Part shown: piece by piece, positions 4,343 through 45,880 of the stretch | Layout of the letters: each line of letters begins with the position of its first letter | Numbering within the stretch: position 1 is the first letter of the stretch | Assembly: GCA_903881475.1 (NCBI GenBank) | Contig: CAIRTK010000081.1 | Coordinates: 1 to 64,000 of the forward strand | DNA: 64,000 nt | Direction of reading: 5' to 3' | Source: an uncultured Opitutia bacterium | Lineage (GTDB): Bacteria; Verrucomicrobiota; Verrucomicrobiia; Opitutales; Opitutaceae | Position numbers and translations under genes: made by a program | Notes under the pieces: generated by a model | What the model was told of the DNA's origin: nothing | The model's database searches: none | The model's input: the letters and a program-made list of their open reading frames with translations, nothing else

Positions 4343-5070
4343 CGAACACCGAGGCGAAATTCCTATTGGGGGCCTACCGGGCCAACGGCCGCGATGCGGG
4401 CAACGCCCTCTTTGGCGAGGCCCTGAACCAGGCCAAGGCTGATCCGGCGCTGGGCAGCTGGTTTGCGCGCGCCCAGGCGCATGATGCGGCGGTTGCGGCC
4501 CGGCTGCAGGAAATTGCCCCGCCGGCGGGGTTGAGGGAAGCGATCCTGGCGGGAGCGCGGGCCAGCCGCGCGCCGGTGGCCAAGCGCAGTTTCCCGACCG
4601 CCTGGCTCGCGTTGGCGGCAAGCGTTGCCGTCCTGCTGACCGCGACGATGGCGTTGTGGCCGAATCGCATGGCGGCACAGACGGCGCGGTTCACAGCCTT
4701 TGCGCTCGACGACACGGCCCATGGCAAGCACGGGGGTCATGGCGAGGCGATGGGGGCCTTGCAGGTGATGCTGAGCCAGCCGACGACGCACCTTAGTGCC
4801 AGGCTGCCGGTGGACTTTGCGGCGCTCCGGGCGACCGGCTGCCGCACGCTGAGTTTTGCCGGGCATGATGTGCTCGAGGTGTGCTTCAACCGCGACGGCC
4901 GGTGGTTCCATTGCTACATTGCGAGCCGGGTGGATTTCCCCGGGATGTCGAACCCGGGCGCGGAGTTTGTCCAGCAAACCCAGCTCGCTAGCGTCTCGTG
5001 GTCGGATGCGACTTATCATTTTGTGGTGGTGAGCGAGGCCGGGCTCGACGCGGTCAAACGGCTGCTCTGA
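4339..5070 (+). CDS. membrane-anchored partner of the ECF sigma factor (putative anti-sigma)
   Basis: A 243-residue protein starting at an ATG that overlaps the sigma stop codon and is preceded by a good ribosome site (GGGAGGA). The first 75 residues are helical and cytoplasmic. One membrane segment follows (LALAASVAVLLTATMALW, about residues 83-105), then a periplasmic domain of about 135 residues. Position and topology fit an anti-sigma factor. However, the cytoplasmic part has no Cys and so lacks the His-Cys-Cys zinc site of ZAS-type anti-sigmas. The periplasmic part carries HGKHGGHG (a possible metal site) and two Cys residues in CRTLSF and LEVCFN. The role is inferred from context. Confidence 0.75.
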   Translation: MTNTEAKFLLGAYRANGRDAGNALFGEALNQAKADPALGSWFARAQAHDAAVAARLQEIAPPAGLREAILAGARASRAPVAKRSFPTAWLALAASVAVLLTATMALWPNRMAAQTARFTAFALDDTAHGKHGGHGEAMGALQVMLSQPTTHLSARLPVDFAALRATGCRTLSFAGHDVLEVCFNRDGRWFHCYIASRVDFPGMSNPGAEFVQQTQLASVSWSDATYHFVVVSEAGLDAVKRLL

Positions 5071-5101
5071 GCCGGCTCCGGTGGTTCAATCGCGATCCAT
5101 C

Positions 5102-5173
5102 TTTACAGGAGGAAACGGAGAAACAGCGATGACGGAGTCTCTCTGCTCCGTTCCCTCCGTTTCCTCCTGTAAA
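5102..5173. repeat. 72-bp palindromic element (copy A)
   Basis: Perfect 19-base inverted arms lie at 5102-5120 and 5155-5173, starting TTTACAGGAGG on each strand. A second inner pair, ACGGAG/CTCCGT, flanks TCTCTCTG. The element sits between the sigma operon and the glycosidase, both on the plus strand. It may act as a transcription barrier, but there is no clear T-run beyond the stem. It looks like a REP or MITE-type dispersed repeat. Confidence 0.8.
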
Positions 5174-5263
5174 ACCGCCTAAGGTTCGAGGATTGGATTT
5201 CTGATCCGAGCAAAAGCTCGCGCCCGGAACGGCGGGTCACTTCGCTGGTCCGTGACTCACCCC

Positions 5264-7984
5264 ATGGGCACGGACCGCACGCCAAAACTGAATGCCGAAC
5301 AGCGCCGCCTCGCCGAGGATGCGACCCGCGCGAAAAACTGGAAACGCTGGGGCCCCTACCTGGCCGAGCGGCAGTGGGGCACGGTGCGGGAGGATTACTC
5401 GCCGGACGGGGAGTGCTGGGGCTATTTTACGCATGAGCACGCGCTCAGCCGTGCCTATCGCTGGGGTGAGGACGGATTACTCGGCCTGGCGGATCGCGAA
5501 GGCCGGCTGTGTTTTGCGCTGGCCCTGTGGAACGGACGCGACCCGATCCTGAAGGAACGGCTGTTCGGCCTCAGCGGCCCTGAGGGCAACCACGGCGAGG
5601 ATGTGAAGGAATGCTACTTCTACCTCGATGGCACGCCGACGCATGCCTGGCAGCGCGCCCTCTACAAGTACCCGCAGGCGGAATTTCCCTACGGCCGGCT
5701 GCGGACCGAGAACGCGCGGCGCGGCCGGAGCGAGCCGGAGTTTGAGCTGCTGGATACGGGGGTGTTCGACGGGGGAAGGTATTTCGACGTGCTGGCCGAT
5801 TACGCCAAGGCCGGGCCGAACGACCTGCTGATCCAGATCACCGTGTCGAACCGCGGCCCGGAGACGGCGCGGCTGCATGTGCTGCCAACGCTGTGGTTCC
5901 GGAATACCTGGTCATGGGGCAGCCGGCTGGAAGACGCCCGGGCCAGGCCGTCGTTGCGCGCCGTCGGTGACAGCCGGGTGCAGTGCGACCATGAGACCCT
6001 GGGAAGGTATTTCCTCGAATGTGAGCCCGGCGCGGAGGGGGCCGCGCCGCTGCTCTTCACGGAGAACGACACCAATGTGGCCAAGCTGTTTGATTCGCCG
6101 AATACGTCGCCCTTCGTGAAGGACGCGTTCCATGAATATGTGGTCGGCGGGCGGAGCGAGGCGGTTAACCCGGCCCGGACCGGCACGAAATGCGCGGCGC
6201 ACCATGTGCTCACGCTGGCGCCGGGAGAGGAGCGGGTGCTGCGCCTGCGGTTGTATGCCGAGGCAGAGAAGCCGGCGAAGGTGTTCGGGAAAGGCTTTGC
6301 CGACACGGTCACGGCCCGGCGGAGCGAGGCCGATGAGTTTTATGCCGATCTCTTGGCGGGAAAAAACCGGACGGAGACCAGGGCGCCGTTCGCCGTCGTC
6401 CCATCGGCCAAGGCCGACCGGGGCGCGGTGAACCAGGTGGCGCGGCAGGCCTATGCCGGGTTGCTGTGGTCCAAGCAGTTTTACCACTACGTCGTGAAGG
6501 AGTGGCTGGAGGGGGATCCCGCGCAGCCGGCCCCGCCCGCGAGCCGCCTGCAGGGGCGCAACCAAGACTGGCCGCACCTGTATGCACGCGATGTCCTCTC
6601 GATGCCGGACAAATGGGAGTATCCGTGGTTCGCCGCCTGGGACTCCGCCTTTCACATGATTCCGTTTGTGCGGCTCGACCCGGAGTTCGCGAAGGAACAG
6701 CTCAATCTTTTTCTGCGGGAGTGGTACATGCACCCCAACGGGCAGCTGCCGGCGTACGAATGGAATTTTTCGGATGTGAATCCGCCGGTGCATGCCTGGG
6801 CGTGCTGGCGCGTTTACAAGATGTCGGGCCGGCCCGGGGCGCGCGACCGGATGTTTCTCGCGCGGGTGTTTCAAAAGCTGCTCCTGAATTTCACGTGGTG
6901 GGTGAACCGCAAAGACCCGGGGGGGAACCACCTGTTCAGCGGCGGATTCCTCGGGCTGGACAACATCGGAGTGTTCGACCGCTCAAAGCCGCTGCCGACC
7001 GGCGGCACGCTGGAGCAGGCGGACGGCACGGCCTGGATGGCATTCTATTGCGGCACGATGCTCTCGATGGCGCTGGAACTGGCGGAGGGCGACGCCGCCT
7101 ATGAGGACATCGCGTCCAAGTTCTTCGAGCACTTCGTCGCCATCGCCGAGGCGATGAACACGCTCGGCGGCACGGGCCTGTGGCACGAGGAGGATGGCTT
7201 TTATTATGACCAGCTGCTGCTGGACGGGCGGACCGCGCCACTGCGCCTGCGGTCCATCGTGGGTGTGATCCCGCTGTTTGCGGTCGAGCTGATCGACGAG
7301 GAACGCATGCAGCGCCTGCCGGGATTCGCGAAGCGCACCCGGTGGTTCCTGAAAAACCGCCCCGACCTGGCGAAGCAGATTTCCTACCTGGAGCAACAAG
7401 GCGGCTGCGGACGCTACCTGCTGGCCATCCCCTCCCGGGAGCGGCTGGAGCGCGTGCTCCGCTACGTGCTCGACGAGGCGGAGTTTCTTTCCCCCCACGG
7501 CGTGCGTTCGCTGTCGCAGGTCTACCGCGACCACCCGTTCGTACTGAGCGCGCCCGCGGGCACCTGGCGCGTCGCCTATACGCCGGGCGAGTCGGACAGC
7601 GGGCTGTTCGGCGGCAACTCCAACTGGCGTGGCCCGGTGTGGTTCCCGGTGAACTATCTGCTGATCGAGGCGCTGGAGCGCTATCATCTGTTTTATGGCG
7701 AAAATCTGACGATGGAATTCCCGACGGGCAGCGGGCATCTCCTCAACCTGGCCGAAATCGCGCAGGAGCTTTCCCGGCGGCTGGTCACACTCTTCCTGCC
7801 CAACACGGGTGGGCGCCGGCCGGCCCTGGGGATGGAGCCGCGGTTTGTGAACGATCCGCACTGGCGGGAGCTGCTCTGGTTCCACGAGTATTTTCACGGC
7901 GACACCGGGCAGGGTCTGGGGGCCAACCACCAGACGGGGTGGACCGCCTTGGTGGCCAGGCTGATAGAGAATTTCGACCAGTAG
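5264..7984 (+). CDS. MGH1-like glycoside hydrolase (GH63-related)
   Basis: A large (about 906 residues) soluble protein of the MGH1-like/GH63-type (alpha/alpha)6-barrel glycosidase group, often labelled glucosidase. It likely removes a glucosyl unit from a glucoside or from glucosylglycerate-type solutes. The N-terminal half is a beta-sandwich domain (QWGTVREDYSPDGECWGYF, then LHVLPTLWFRNTWSWG). The barrel begins near residue 385 and includes KWEYPWFAAWDSAFHM, LPAYEWNFSDVNPPVHAWA, ETGW-like HQTGWTALVARL, and SNWRGPVWFPVNYLL, all typical of the clan; acidic residues within these are the catalytic candidates. No signal peptide is seen, so it acts in the cytoplasm. The ATG at 5264 is preferred to a GTG at 5252. 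The exact substrate cannot be read from sequence. Confidence 0.85.
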   Translation: MGTDRTPKLNAEQRRLAEDATRAKNWKRWGPYLAERQWGTVREDYSPDGECWGYFTHEHALSRAYRWGEDGLLGLADREGRLCFALALWNGRDPILKERLFGLSGPEGNHGEDVKECYFYLDGTPTHAWQRALYKYPQAEFPYGRLRTENARRGRSEPEFELLDTGVFDGGRYFDVLADYAKAGPNDLLIQITVSNRGPETARLHVLPTLWFRNTWSWGSRLEDARARPSLRAVGDSRVQCDHETLGRYFLECEPGAEGAAPLLFTENDTNVAKLFDSPNTSPFVKDAFHEYVVGGRSEAVNPARTGTKCAAHHVLTLAPGEERVLRLRLYAEAEKPAKVFGKGFADTVTARRSEADEFYADLLAGKNRTETRAPFAVVPSAKADRGAVNQVARQAYAGLLWSKQFYHYVVKEWLEGDPAQPAPPASRLQGRNQDWPHLYARDVLSMPDKWEYPWFAAWDSAFHMIPFVRLDPEFAKEQLNLFLREWYMHPNGQLPAYEWNFSDVNPPVHAWACWRVYKMSGRPGARDRMFLARVFQKLLLNFTWWVNRKDPGGNHLFSGGFLGLDNIGVFDRSKPLPTGGTLEQADGTAWMAFYCGTMLSMALELAEGDAAYEDIASKFFEHFVAIAEAMNTLGGTGLWHEEDGFYYDQLLLDGRTAPLRLRSIVGVIPLFAVELIDEERMQRLPGFAKRTRWFLKNRPDLAKQISYLEQQGGCGRYLLAIPSRERLERVLRYVLDEAEFLSPHGVRSLSQVYRDHPFVLSAPAGTWRVAYTPGESDSGLFGGNSNWRGPVWFPVNYLLIEALERYHLFYGENLTMEFPTGSGHLLNLAEIAQELSRRLVTLFLPNTGGRRPALGMEPRFVNDPHWRELLWFHEYFHGDTGQGLGANHQTGWTALVARLIENFDQ

Positions 7985-42261: not shown

Positions 42262-43923
42262 ATGCTTCAGTCGCTCCGCATCAAAAACCTGGCCCTGCTG
42301 GAGGAGGTCGCCCTCGACTTCGAGGCGGGCTTCACGGCGGTCACGGGCGAGACGGGCGCGGGCAAGAGCATCCTGCTGGGCGCGCTGAGCCTGCTGGCGG
42401 GCGAGCGGGCGGACAAAACCATCATCCGGCAGGGCGCGCCAGCCGTGGAGGCGGAGGCAGCATTATTCTTCACGGACCCGCGGAAAATCGATGCCGTGCT
42501 GGCCGGGCTGGATCTGCCGGCTTGTGAGGACGGCGTGCTGATTCTCAAGCGCAGCCTGCCGCGGGACAAGGCGCCCAAGATCACGGTCAATGGCAGCCTG
42601 GCCACGCTCTCCGCCCTGCAGCAGCTCGGCGAACACTGGGTCGATTTCCATGGTCCGAGCGAACCGCGCCGGCTGCTCAAGGAGGCTTGCCAGCTCGAAC
42701 TGCTCGATCTCTTTGGCCGCGCCGGAGGGACGCTCGCGAACTATCAGGCAAGCTACCGCGGATGGCGCGAGCTGATCGCCGAACGCGAGCGGATCATGCA
42801 GGAGACAAAACTCGCGCCCGATCAGATTGCGTTTCTCGAGAACCAGCTCGCGCGGATCGACGCGCTCGACCTGACCGAGGCGGCGATCGAGGCATTGGAG
42901 CGCGACTTTGCCCGGATGAGCCGGGCGCAGGAGCTCATCGGGCTCGCCCAGGCGCTGGCCGGCGGCCTGACGGGGGAGGAAGGCGTGCAGAGCCGCGTGG
43001 CGGCGCTGCTACGCGAGTCGCGGCAGCTCGAGAGCATTGATGCGGCGAGCAAGCCGCTGGCCGACCGGCTGGCCTCAGCCGCCGTGGAGCTGAACGACCT
43101 CGGCGCCGAGTTTTCCGCCCTGAGCCAGCAGCTCCAGTTTGATCCCGAGCAGGCGGAGCAGCTGACCGAGCAGATGAACACCTGGCTTGAGCTCAAGCGG
43201 AGGCACGGCGGCGAACTGGCGGCCGTGCTCGCGGCGCGCGACGGGATGCGGCGGCGGCTGGAGGTGCAGGGCGACCTTGAGGGCACGCTGGCGAAACTGG
43301 AGAAACAGATCGCGGACGCCCATCGCGCCGCGAAGAAGGAGGCGGCGGTCCTGCGCGGCCTGCGGGAGAAGGCGGCGCAGGAGCTGGCGAAGGTGGCAGC
43401 GAAGGGCATCGCCCAGCTGGGCTTCAAGAAGGCGGATTTCCAGGTGCGGCTGGTGCCGTTGCCGGAACTTGGGCCGACGGGTGACGGCGGCGCGGAATTC
43501 CTGTTCTCCCCGAACGTGGGCGAGGCGCCGCTGCCGCTGAACCGCGTGGCGTCGAGCGGCGAGCTCGCGCGCGTGATGCTGGCGCTGAAGACGGTGCTGG
43601 CGGATCTCGACGAGGTGCCGTTGCTGGTCTTCGACGAAGTGGACGCCAACGTCGGCGGCGAGATCGGTCGCGTGGTGGGCGAGAAGATGGCCGGCATTGC
43701 GAAAAACCACCAGGTCCTCTGCGTGACCCACCTGCCGCAGGTCGCGGCCCAGGCGACGTGTCATCTGGTGGTCACGAAGGACCAGTCGAAGGATCGGGCG
43801 GTAGTGACGATCGAGCCGATCCAGGCAAGCCGGAAGGCGCGGGTGAGCGAACTCGCGCGGATGCTTGGCGACAGCAAGGCGAAGAGCGCGCTGGCGCACG
43901 CGGAGGAACTGCTGGGAAGGTAG
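42262..43923 (+). CDS. recN: DNA repair ATPase RecN
   Basis: A 553-residue SMC-like protein that acts in double-strand break repair. The N-terminal ATPase half has TAVTGETGAGKSILL (Walker A, 29-36) and the Q-loop region WVDFHGPSEP. A coiled coil follows in two arms around a variable middle. The C-terminal half has LNRVASSGELARVMLALK (signature motif) and PLLVFDEVDANVGGEIGRVV (Walker B). The final TAG lies within the first arm of the hairpin repeat that starts at 43917. Confidence 0.97.
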   Translation: MLQSLRIKNLALLEEVALDFEAGFTAVTGETGAGKSILLGALSLLAGERADKTIIRQGAPAVEAEAALFFTDPRKIDAVLAGLDLPACEDGVLILKRSLPRDKAPKITVNGSLATLSALQQLGEHWVDFHGPSEPRRLLKEACQLELLDLFGRAGGTLANYQASYRGWRELIAERERIMQETKLAPDQIAFLENQLARIDALDLTEAAIEALERDFARMSRAQELIGLAQALAGGLTGEEGVQSRVAALLRESRQLESIDAASKPLADRLASAAVELNDLGAEFSALSQQLQFDPEQAEQLTEQMNTWLELKRRHGGELAAVLAARDGMRRRLEVQGDLEGTLAKLEKQIADAHRAAKKEAAVLRGLREKAAQELAKVAAKGIAQLGFKKADFQVRLVPLPELGPTGDGGAEFLFSPNVGEAPLPLNRVASSGELARVMLALKTVLADLDEVPLLVFDEVDANVGGEIGRVVGEKMAGIAKNHQVLCVTHLPQVAAQATCHLVVTKDQSKDRAVVTIEPIQASRKARVSELARMLGDSKAKSALAHAEELLGR

Positions 43924-44000
43924 GGCGCGTTATCCCTAACGCGCCGGTTAGACGCGGACGGAGAAAAACTCGGCGGGTTAGGGATAACCCGCCCTACCTT
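43917..44000. repeat. paired hairpin repeat that supplies both convergent stop codons (copy D)
   Basis: The two arms (43917-43947 and 43971-44000) match on opposite strands in about 28 of 30 bases. Each arm folds on its own: GGCGCGTTA/TAACGCGCC (43924-43932 and 43937-43945, loop TCCC) and GGCGGGTTA/TAACCCGCC (43972-43980 and 43985-43993, loop GGGA). The two differences between arms are compensatory, C-G swapped to G-C, so both stems stay perfect. recN and ccsA both end at a TAG inside these arms. Confidence 0.9.
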
Positions 44001-45880
44001 GTCTGAAAGCTCCGCCACCTGGCCAGGGGCAGGTTGGCAATGCCGATGAAGGCGAGCTGGCTGGCGACGAAGGCGAGCAGCCACCAGAAGGTCGCCTCGA
44101 CGAAGCCGTAGTTGTGGAGGCCCACGCCGAGCAGGTTCACGCCGAAAAAGCTCCAGCTCGTCACGATGTTGCCGAAAACGGCGAGGCACATGAGGCCGCG
44201 CTGCTTGACCAGGCCGCCCCAGCGGGCGTGGAGGATGATCGCATTCCAGATCACGATGATCAGCGCGCCGTTTTCCTTGGGATCCCAGCCCCAGAAGCGG
44301 CCCCAGGACTGGTCGGCCCAGATGCCGCCGAGGACCGTGCCGACGAGGCTGAACAGCGTGGCGAAGCAGACGATGCCATACACCATGCGGGCAAGCGTGT
44401 CGGCCGTCGCCTTGTCCAGGGACTGGGTGAAAACGCCCCGGACAATGTAGATCAGTGCGAGGAACCCGGCGAGGAAAGTGGCGCCGTAGCCCGCGGTCAC
44501 CGTCAGCACGTGGGTCGAGAGCCAGAAATTGGAGTCCAGCACGGCGCGCATCATCTCGAGGGTGTCGCCGCCGAGCTCGAGATAGGACGCAATGAGCAGC
44601 GTGCTGAAGCCGATGAGCCCGGCGGCGGCGGAGCCGATGCCGTTGCGGTAGAGGTACTCGAGGCCCAGGCAGAACGCCACGGAGACCCAGCCGACAAACA
44701 GCGCGGCGGAATAAAGGTTGGTGACCGGCGGGCGGCCCTCCAGCCACATGCGCGTGAGGATGCCGGCGGTGGTGAGCAACCAGGCCAGGGCGACGAGCCA
44801 GAAGGCGCCGCGGCCGAGTTCCTTGGGCCAGTAGAGCCAGGAGCAAAGCGCCCCGAAGAACGCCAGGACATAGAGGATCTTTGCGGTGTAAAACGGCCGC
44901 ACATTGTTGTACCGTGTCTCGGCATCGCATTTGGCCAGTGCGCCCGGGAACCCCTTTTGCAGCTCCTCGCGATAGAGCCGGATGATCTCGTTGAACTCGT
45001 CGGGCCGCCCGGCGCGCCACGTGTGCGCGAGCCCCGCATAGGCCATCACGTGCGCGTTGACCGCGCCGGTCTGGAAGGTCTCCATCAGCGCCGCGCCGGC
45101 GTTCCTCCAGCCGTTGGCGTCGCTTTCCCCGGCGGCGGGCGGAATCGCGAGCACATAGCCGAGCTGAGCCATGCGATCGAAGCGCTCGCCGAAGTCGATC
45201 AGTTTGCGGGCGGCGACGGCGTCGTGGGGTTGCTTCGCCTCCTTTGCGCGCACCGCCTCGATGCCGGCGGGCAGGCTTTGCTGGAAGTCCATGAGGTCGC
45301 CCAGGAAGTCAGCGCGGTCGGAGGCGACGACGCTCTCCTTCAGGCGGAGGTACAGGATGACGTTGGACTGGAGCTGGACGACGCTGCGCTGAAAGGCATT
45401 GCGCGCCTGGGATTCGACCGGCTCGGCCAGCTTGGCCTGGCGCTCGAGTTCCGGCAGGGCCTTCTGAATCTGCGCGAACGAGTACCGGCGTTCCCCAAGG
45501 CCGTCCGCCGGCTGGAGGTGGAACAGGCTCAGGACATCGGGATTGTCGATGACGATCACCTGGTAGGTGTCCGCCTTGGTCGCGTCAAACATCAGGTCGA
45601 GAAACCACTCGTTGGGCGTGAGCAGGCGGTTATCCGGCGTGGCGATCCGGTGGCTGCGCTCCGGGTCGCTGTTGGCAGGATCGTTCGAGACGTTGTTGCA
45701 GAGCACGAGCAGCGACGTGCGCGCGACGGTGTCCATCGGTTTCACGCGGCCGTTCATCAGCACTGGCAAGCGGCTGAACCCGACCACGTCGAACGCGGCG
45801 GGATTGCGCAGCGGCAGCAGCGACCGGCCGATGAGGGCGAGGCCGAGCAGGAGCAAAAGCAGAGGGAAATACCGTTTCAT
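43994..45880 (-). CDS. ccsA: cytochrome c biogenesis protein CcsA (System II), with N-terminal extension
   Basis: A 628-residue membrane protein that delivers and attaches haem to apocytochrome c. The C-terminal about 290 residues are the CcsA core with the Trp-rich haem motif WGWDPKENGALIIVIWNAI and conserved His in LSTHVLTVTAGYG and ILHARWGG. The N-terminal about 330 residues begin with a membrane segment (YFPLLLLLLGLALIGRSLL) and form a long periplasmic domain with RPFYTAKILYVL before the core. This extended arrangement resembles CcsA proteins fused or linked to a ResB-like end. It overlaps resB by ATGA, and its TAG stop is inside repeat D. Confidence 0.92.
   Translation of the reverse strand: MKRYFPLLLLLLGLALIGRSLLPLRNPAAFDVVGFSRLPVLMNGRVKPMDTVARTSLLVLCNNVSNDPANSDPERSHRIATPDNRLLTPNEWFLDLMFDATKADTYQVIVIDNPDVLSLFHLQPADGLGERRYSFAQIQKALPELERQAKLAEPVESQARNAFQRSVVQLQSNVILYLRLKESVVASDRADFLGDLMDFQQSLPAGIEAVRAKEAKQPHDAVAARKLIDFGERFDRMAQLGYVLAIPPAAGESDANGWRNAGAALMETFQTGAVNAHVMAYAGLAHTWRAGRPDEFNEIIRLYREELQKGFPGALAKCDAETRYNNVRPFYTAKILYVLAFFGALCSWLYWPKELGRGAFWLVALAWLLTTAGILTRMWLEGRPPVTNLYSAALFVGWVSVAFCLGLEYLYRNGIGSAAAGLIGFSTLLIASYLELGGDTLEMMRAVLDSNFWLSTHVLTVTAGYGATFLAGFLALIYIVRGVFTQSLDKATADTLARMVYGIVCFATLFSLVGTVLGGIWADQSWGRFWGWDPKENGALIIVIWNAIILHARWGGLVKQRGLMCLAVFGNIVTSWSFFGVNLLGVGLHNYGFVEATFWWLLAFVASQLAFIGIANLPLARWRSFQTR

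Follow-up and report, generated by a model that had tools for sequence, protein, structure and literature searches.

A probable transposase-associated GTAG-class REPIN at the meeting point of two convergent genes in an uncultured Opitutia bacterium

Two convergent genes of an uncultured Opitutia bacterium (GenBank assembly GCA_903881475.1, contig CAIRTK010000081.1) run into the same inverted repeat and both stop inside it, which raises the question of whether this repeat is kept there for the host or was brought by a mobile element. The window analysed comprises positions 1 to 64,000 of the contig. One of the genes is recN (42262-43923, plus strand; TIGR00634, 398.4 bits, just below the cut-off of 407.85). 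The other, on the minus strand at 43994-45880, is a cytochrome c assembly gene (PF01578), called ccsA in an earlier sequence-only reading; the nearest NCBIfam model is CcsB, with 124 bits, below the cut-off of 188. That reading had proposed that the repeat provides both stop codons, that its folded form has been under selection, at least during the spread of the family, and that it may serve either as a bidirectional barrier to transcription or as the target of a REP-associated transposase.

The repeat at 43917-44000 is real and consists of two inverted REPs, each with a GTAG tag abutting a hairpin of nine perfect base pairs and a 4-nt loop. Together they form an inverted REP doublet, or REPIN, that measures 78 bp from GTAG to CTAC and belongs to what we call family A. 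The 30-nt arms, at 43917-43946 and 43971-44000, are 93% complementary across a gap of 24 nt. In the left half (43920-43945, plus strand), the tag at 43920-43923 is followed by the C-type stem GGCGCGTTA/TAACGCGCC (43924-43932 with 43937-43945) around the loop TCCC, and in the right half (43972-43997, minus strand) the tag at 43997-43994 is followed by the G-type stem GGCGGGTTA/TAACCCGCC (43993-43985 with 43980-43972). The halves are separated by a 26-nt spacer (43946-43971), the minus strand of which begins with GAGTTTTTCT, resembling a terminator tail in the direction of ccsA. Two differences between the halves had been noted as keeping both stems perfect; pairing is indeed intact, but both differences sit in one and the same compensated pair (C43928-G43941 versus the pair 43976/43989), which is C-G on the left and G-C on the right. 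Predicted folding energies are -15.6 and -16.8 kcal/mol for the single halves and -54.9 for the whole element (z -7.3), or -54.5 on the opposite strand (z -7.9), far better than those of shuffled sequences. No Rfam family exceeded its threshold; the only match, to a miRNA, scored 24.9 bits where the gathering score is 137.

A DNA search of the assembly with the repeat returned 75 matches, with the palindrome counted on both strands, so it occurs far beyond chance. Scanning of 31 of the 32 fetched stretches, together with the window, yielded 97 raw matches, from which 21 overlapping weaker matches and 5 look-alikes were dropped before counting. The resulting set, from which places on contigs C5 and C14 were left out, holds 71 halves, arranged as 32 inverted doublets and 7 singles; the doublet is the usual unit. 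The tag reads GTAG in 61 halves, GTGG in 4 and otherwise in 6, and 20 of the 32 doublets have the 26-nt spacer and the length of 78 bp from GTAG to CTAC. The window itself contains a second, degenerate family-A doublet at 2484-2561, its halves 2 and 3 mismatches away from the consensus; no REP match was found at the orthologous site in any of the 8 relatives resolved there.

Stem pairing is conserved throughout family A: 609 of 639 stem cells are paired, 53 of the 71 halves retain all nine pairs, and none of 2000 shuffles reached 609 (maximum 582). The statistical check for covariation suggested earlier was carried out, and the stems do covary, though as three inherited subtypes. These are set by two adjacent pairs that vary on both sides (C-G in 34 and G-C in 31 halves; G-C in 45 and A-T in 22), and since they are inherited, the copies do not count as independent covariation events. 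Apart from the pairs that set the subtypes, all 39 stem changes are one-sided. Uncompensated changes, which had been expected to speak against selection on the fold, are present to some extent, with at least one broken pair in 18 of the 71 halves. A compensated change in place was seen in the right half of the copy at C10:13708, which has A-T in the nearest relative, G008, and G-C in this genome; the left half of the same copy carries an uncompensated break in this genome that is missing from G008. The covariation thus comes down to roughly two pair changes of ancestral origin and a single one in place. Selection on the folded form is upheld by the pairing across the family, but the case is weak for the single recN/ccsA site, where the compensated difference is the standing asymmetry of the family and therefore says little about selection at that place.

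The REP-associated transposase gene, which the earlier reading had recommended looking for, was found in decayed form. A Pfam Y1_Tnp search of the assembly identified two genes, on contigs C25 and C11, and a search with the C11 protein added two further places, on C1 and C69. At C69:494-954 there is a RAYT relic in two frames, situated between family-A REPs at C69:451 and C69:981; its two matches to the REP_Tyr_transpos model NF047646 score 59.4 and 20.9 bits and fall short of the cut-off of 80. The position of the relic between two REPs of this family argues for a RAYT dedicated to family A, now or in the past. Since the assembly yielded no intact cognate gene, the present mobility of the family is putative.

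The other Y1/RAYT genes, on C25, C11 and C1, were rejected as family A's own, their flanks being without a family-A hairpin. The C11 gene is an intact RAYT (L037, 1981-2562; 193 aa; NF047646, 90.3 bits) with inverted GTGGGCGGGGTGCCCTCACCCCGC hairpins, those of family E, on both flanks; a single perfect copy of family E lies in the window at 1729-1752. On C1 (L188; G000:C1:14329-14595, G000 being this genome), a RAYT-like frame with 37% identity to the C11 RAYT has GTGGAACG-type hairpins on both sides, and on C25 (L022, about 4850-5900) a longer Y1 transposase gene with a 338-aa open frame has inverted GGTCAGCCCCTAACTTTTGTGG-type repeats on either side. Elsewhere in the genus, several RAYT genes are bordered by GTAG or GTGG hairpins of their own; at other loci the finder used detected none. 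In G008, a RAYT match with one internal TGA on contig C48 lies between matches to another REP family, B, at 22-48 and 523-551. Of the two halves of the family-A relic, one has this RAYT as its best match and the other has it among its best.

With two family-A copies flanking a decayed RAYT gene, we consider it highly probable that the element is a transposase-associated, non-autonomous REPIN of the GTAG class. Such an element would act as a single-stranded DNA hairpin and would be spread by the RAYT, a tyrosine HUH transposase, for which the GTAG and small hairpin of each half were presumably the recognition signal; this recognition would explain why the stems stay paired. At the locus in question, the element would have inserted where the last codons of two convergent genes face each other. 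The TAG in the tag would have closed both frames at once and hardly altered the length of the proteins, so that the insertion could be tolerated.

The alternative that survives best, although we regard it as improbable, is that the element is kept between recN and ccsA as a bidirectional transcription barrier or a stabiliser of mRNA 3' ends, the compensated pair then reflecting selection on an RNA hairpin. It is consistent with the convergent arrangement of the genes around the element, with the strong hairpins predicted on both strands, and with the terminator-like tail that follows the stem 43993-43972 in the ccsA direction. This tail is present on the minus strand only, whereas no T-run follows the hairpin in the recN direction; the T-run on both strands of a canonical bidirectional terminator is thus found on the ccsA strand alone, and the two-way barrier is not borne out. 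Family A is moreover missing beside recN in all eleven congeners, with no half at 5 or fewer mismatches at any of their recN loci (L407 being short). Elsewhere in the family, T-rich tails adjoin the hairpins in 7 of 142 cases, the copy at C49:31075 has next to it a separate GC-rich hairpin with a T-run that by eye looks like an intrinsic terminator, and three copies are in frame within reading frames, namely in hrpA (C66:65314), in a WD40 gene (C10:13708) and in an 859-aa frame on C17 that has no Pfam match. Together, these observations make a general terminator role for family A unlikely. To judge from the sequence, a one-way terminator for the ccsA direction is possible at this site, a host role is putative only, and the current effect on expression of the two genes, through hairpins at the mRNA 3' ends, is most likely minor and incidental.

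The stop codons deserve a closer look. Letter by letter, both genes do terminate on the TAG of a GTAG tag, recN at 43921-43923 on the plus strand and the cytochrome-assembly gene at 43996-43994 on the minus strand, but only in the partner gene does the stop derive from the element. We compared recN with 80 relatives, kept out of 102. It stops at the identical codon position in 8 of 11 congeners, none of which has family A at recN, and the codon is TAG in six of these. In three of the six (G002, G004 and G005) the TAG begins a shorter GTAG...CTAC palindrome and may itself have come from a REP; the sequence printed for G008, G009 and G003 shows no palindrome of this sort after the recN TAG. The partner gene adjoins recN in 5 of the 11 congener loci compared. 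In L044 and L046 it stops at the identical codon with TGA, and in L043 one codon earlier, also with TGA. The element would therefore have taken over an existing recN stop and given the partner gene a new stop codon. In L402, L403 and L407 (also in L044 and L046), recN and the cytochrome-assembly gene are 33 bp apart, and this gap is filled by a short single GTAG...CTAC palindrome whose TAG ends recN.

The REP TAG is the stop of a coding-like frame at eight ends in the assembly, gene ends being judged by a crude codon score. Relatives are available for seven. In six cases, one or more relatives that lack family A end the gene at the very codon taken by the REP TAG; in one such case, on C61, the relative's stop is itself the TAG of a C-type REP (family C, distinct from the C-type halves of family A). 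At the seventh, C72:407, the gene is 1-4 codons shorter in this genome.

Elements of the IS200/IS605 group insert beside a target tetranucleotide, and a GTAG that often consists of a G plus stop codon might have been a pre-existing target 3' of which the element inserts. Agreement of the REP TAG with a native stop at six of the seven ends is compatible with this, as is the ending of recN in G-TAG-G in several relatives without family A. Native stops at the REP-ended genes, however, also include TGA and TAA, and 15 of 17 short REP-free orthologous intervals (19 rows, less two still holding a REP) contain neither GTAG nor CTAC, the two with GTAG being C11:10178 in G010 and C31:16038 in G001. On this count a pre-existing target was put aside as very unlikely.

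Another feature of the family is the unlikeness of its halves. A C-type half is joined to a G-type half in 30 of the 32 doublets, a figure not matched in any of 20000 random pairings. Because the halves are unlike, the long arm-to-arm run is interrupted, and the longest perfect run does not exceed 12 bp in 31 of the 32 copies. As a general rule, avoidance of long palindromes failed on family C, as four C-type REPINs of G008 have perfect arm-to-arm runs of 25-26 bp. For family A we infer the simpler cause, that the asymmetry was passed down from a master doublet; by breaking the palindrome, it may also spare the element from hairpin nucleases. Least probable of all is that the perfect stems arose by template switching or gene conversion between the arms, without transposase selection or an RNA role: inverted arms are capable of recombining, and an E-type doublet within a C-type doublet appears by eye to be flipped between this genome and G008, but conversion within a family-A doublet would equalise halves of which nearly all pairs remain unlike.

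Nested repeats were also noticed in their own right. The E-type doublet just mentioned (G000:C66:96907-96966 versus G008:C62:36028-36086) is nested in the spacer of the C-type doublet, and its flip between the species looks as if the outer C-type arms had recombined. Family-A doublets in L029 (G000:C81:66272) and L023 (G000:C72:407) are located beside or between C-type hairpins, apparently inside the spacers of family-C doublets.

We then turn from the locus to the family A sites elsewhere in the genome. Short joined flanks of 37 elements, every one except the window's own, were searched in the genus and the places aligned. G008 shares 84-88% DNA identity over most aligned stretches and 93% in recN. 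Among 21 intervals resolved in G008, 2 hold family A, 10 another REP family and 9 none; by plain scan alone the numbers are 3, 9 and 9, the difference being due to C61:3492, which in G008 was read by eye as a C-type plus B half. A further nine congeners gave 35 resolved intervals, of which two hold a REP by scan, one ambiguous. These counts exclude two intervals longer than 400 bp and an ortholog pair judged spurious (k=35 with L194).

As a background, variable intervals that are without a REP here hold one in G008 in 6 of 49 cases, or in 5 of 29 when both gaps are at least 40 bp. Family-A sites whose G008 interval is non-A by scan hold a REP in 9 of 18 cases (p 0.002 and 0.02, respectively, a comparison limited by the different ways in which the two sets were collected). 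A 2x2 test on variable intervals gave an odds ratio of 5.1 (p 0.03), or 3.8 (p 0.11) with both gaps at least 40 bp. The doublet finder returned 13 doublets in this genome and 24 in G008, against 2, 2 and 1 in controls. A generic hairpin finder performed no better than on reversed sequence and was dropped.

At four sites, family A in this genome and family B in G008 share a base-exact boundary, and the interior between GGTAGGG and CCTACC differs. The boundary is exact at both ends at C49:31075, at the left end at C72:407, and at the right end in the hrpA copy and at C31:16038; at the latter three sites the opposite end differs or was left out of the comparison. In the hrpA linker (L040, about 14058; G000:C66:65314), family A here and the other REPIN family in G008 are both open in frame, and at C31:16038 the A and B versions both supply the TAG stop of the gene. 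The flanks of C31:16038 are split over two G008 contigs, C10 and C48, and a RAYT gene seems to be located there beside B-type REPs.

The search was also made from the side of family B. Ten B sites of this genome were sought in G008, and at least one flank was found for nine: B, a remnant of it or a B-like repeat is present at four, a C-type repeat at two and none at three. In L335 and L351 the C-type repeat begins within about 1 bp of the B boundary. Conversely, B sites of G008 sought in this genome hold A in three cases (two already known from the A search), B or a remnant in four and none in three, with two not found; this set is rich in A loci, and the share of A is no estimate. These outcomes indicate that shared old copies, losses and swaps all occur.

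The base-exact boundaries at the four sites suggest exchange in place, and a cassette exchange across the shared short ends, driven by the RAYT or by annealing, would explain them. Sharing of sites could also come from independent, repeated insertion at tolerated places or intervals, but base-exact agreement of the ends is hard to obtain in this way. That REPIN sites are inherited slots, the contents of which are swapped between families, is a tentative proposal to which we give somewhat less than an even chance.

Most of these properties have precedents. In the parts of PMC3733652 covered, GTAG-tagged REPs are described as forming inverted dimers, including heterodimers with different stems, as having mostly 6-9 bp stems and copies inside genes, as often supplying TAG stops to flanking ORFs, and as enriched in Opitutus terrae (Verrucomicrobia); for heterodimers, escape from hairpin nucleases is offered there as one idea. 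Going by this text description, family A resembles them in the tag, the inverted dimers, the unlike halves, the TAG stops and the in-gene copies. For GTAG REPs and REPINs, both the compensated halves and the shared stop codons are already on record, and the unexpected part is the slot pattern elsewhere in the family, not the copy between recN and ccsA. The orthologous-site comparison made here is absent from the covered parts of that paper.

For Pseudomonas fluorescens REPINs, the sections seen of PMC3116915 propose an inverted REP doublet with its spacer as the replicating unit, and likewise here; those elements belong to another sequence class and phylum, and copies are far fewer in the present genome (32 doublets). 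As in the RAYT/TnpA-REP systems (NF047646; excerpts of PMC8266576 and PMC3686654), a relic matching NF047646 lies between two REPs, but the family-A RAYT copy is broken, and its recognition of the hairpin is putative. The REP 'orthoswitch', according to the portion of PMC3686654 consulted, is the replacement of one REP class by another in a related genome, as seen here. It was inferred at REPs flanking syntenic RAYT genes, with new variants spreading and old copies remaining and decaying, whereas here scattered sites hold different families, four of them with a common end point. No report of an exchange of REP families at scattered sites was found in the parts of the open-access literature covered.

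With the present analysis the GTAG REPINs gain a family from uncultured Opitutae, which has a dead transposase gene alongside. The case also illustrates clearly how a mobile element whose fixed end contains TAG can sit at the ends of genes with little harm. If slot exchange is true, existing REPs would be overwritten in place and not only added, which bears on how REPs spread.
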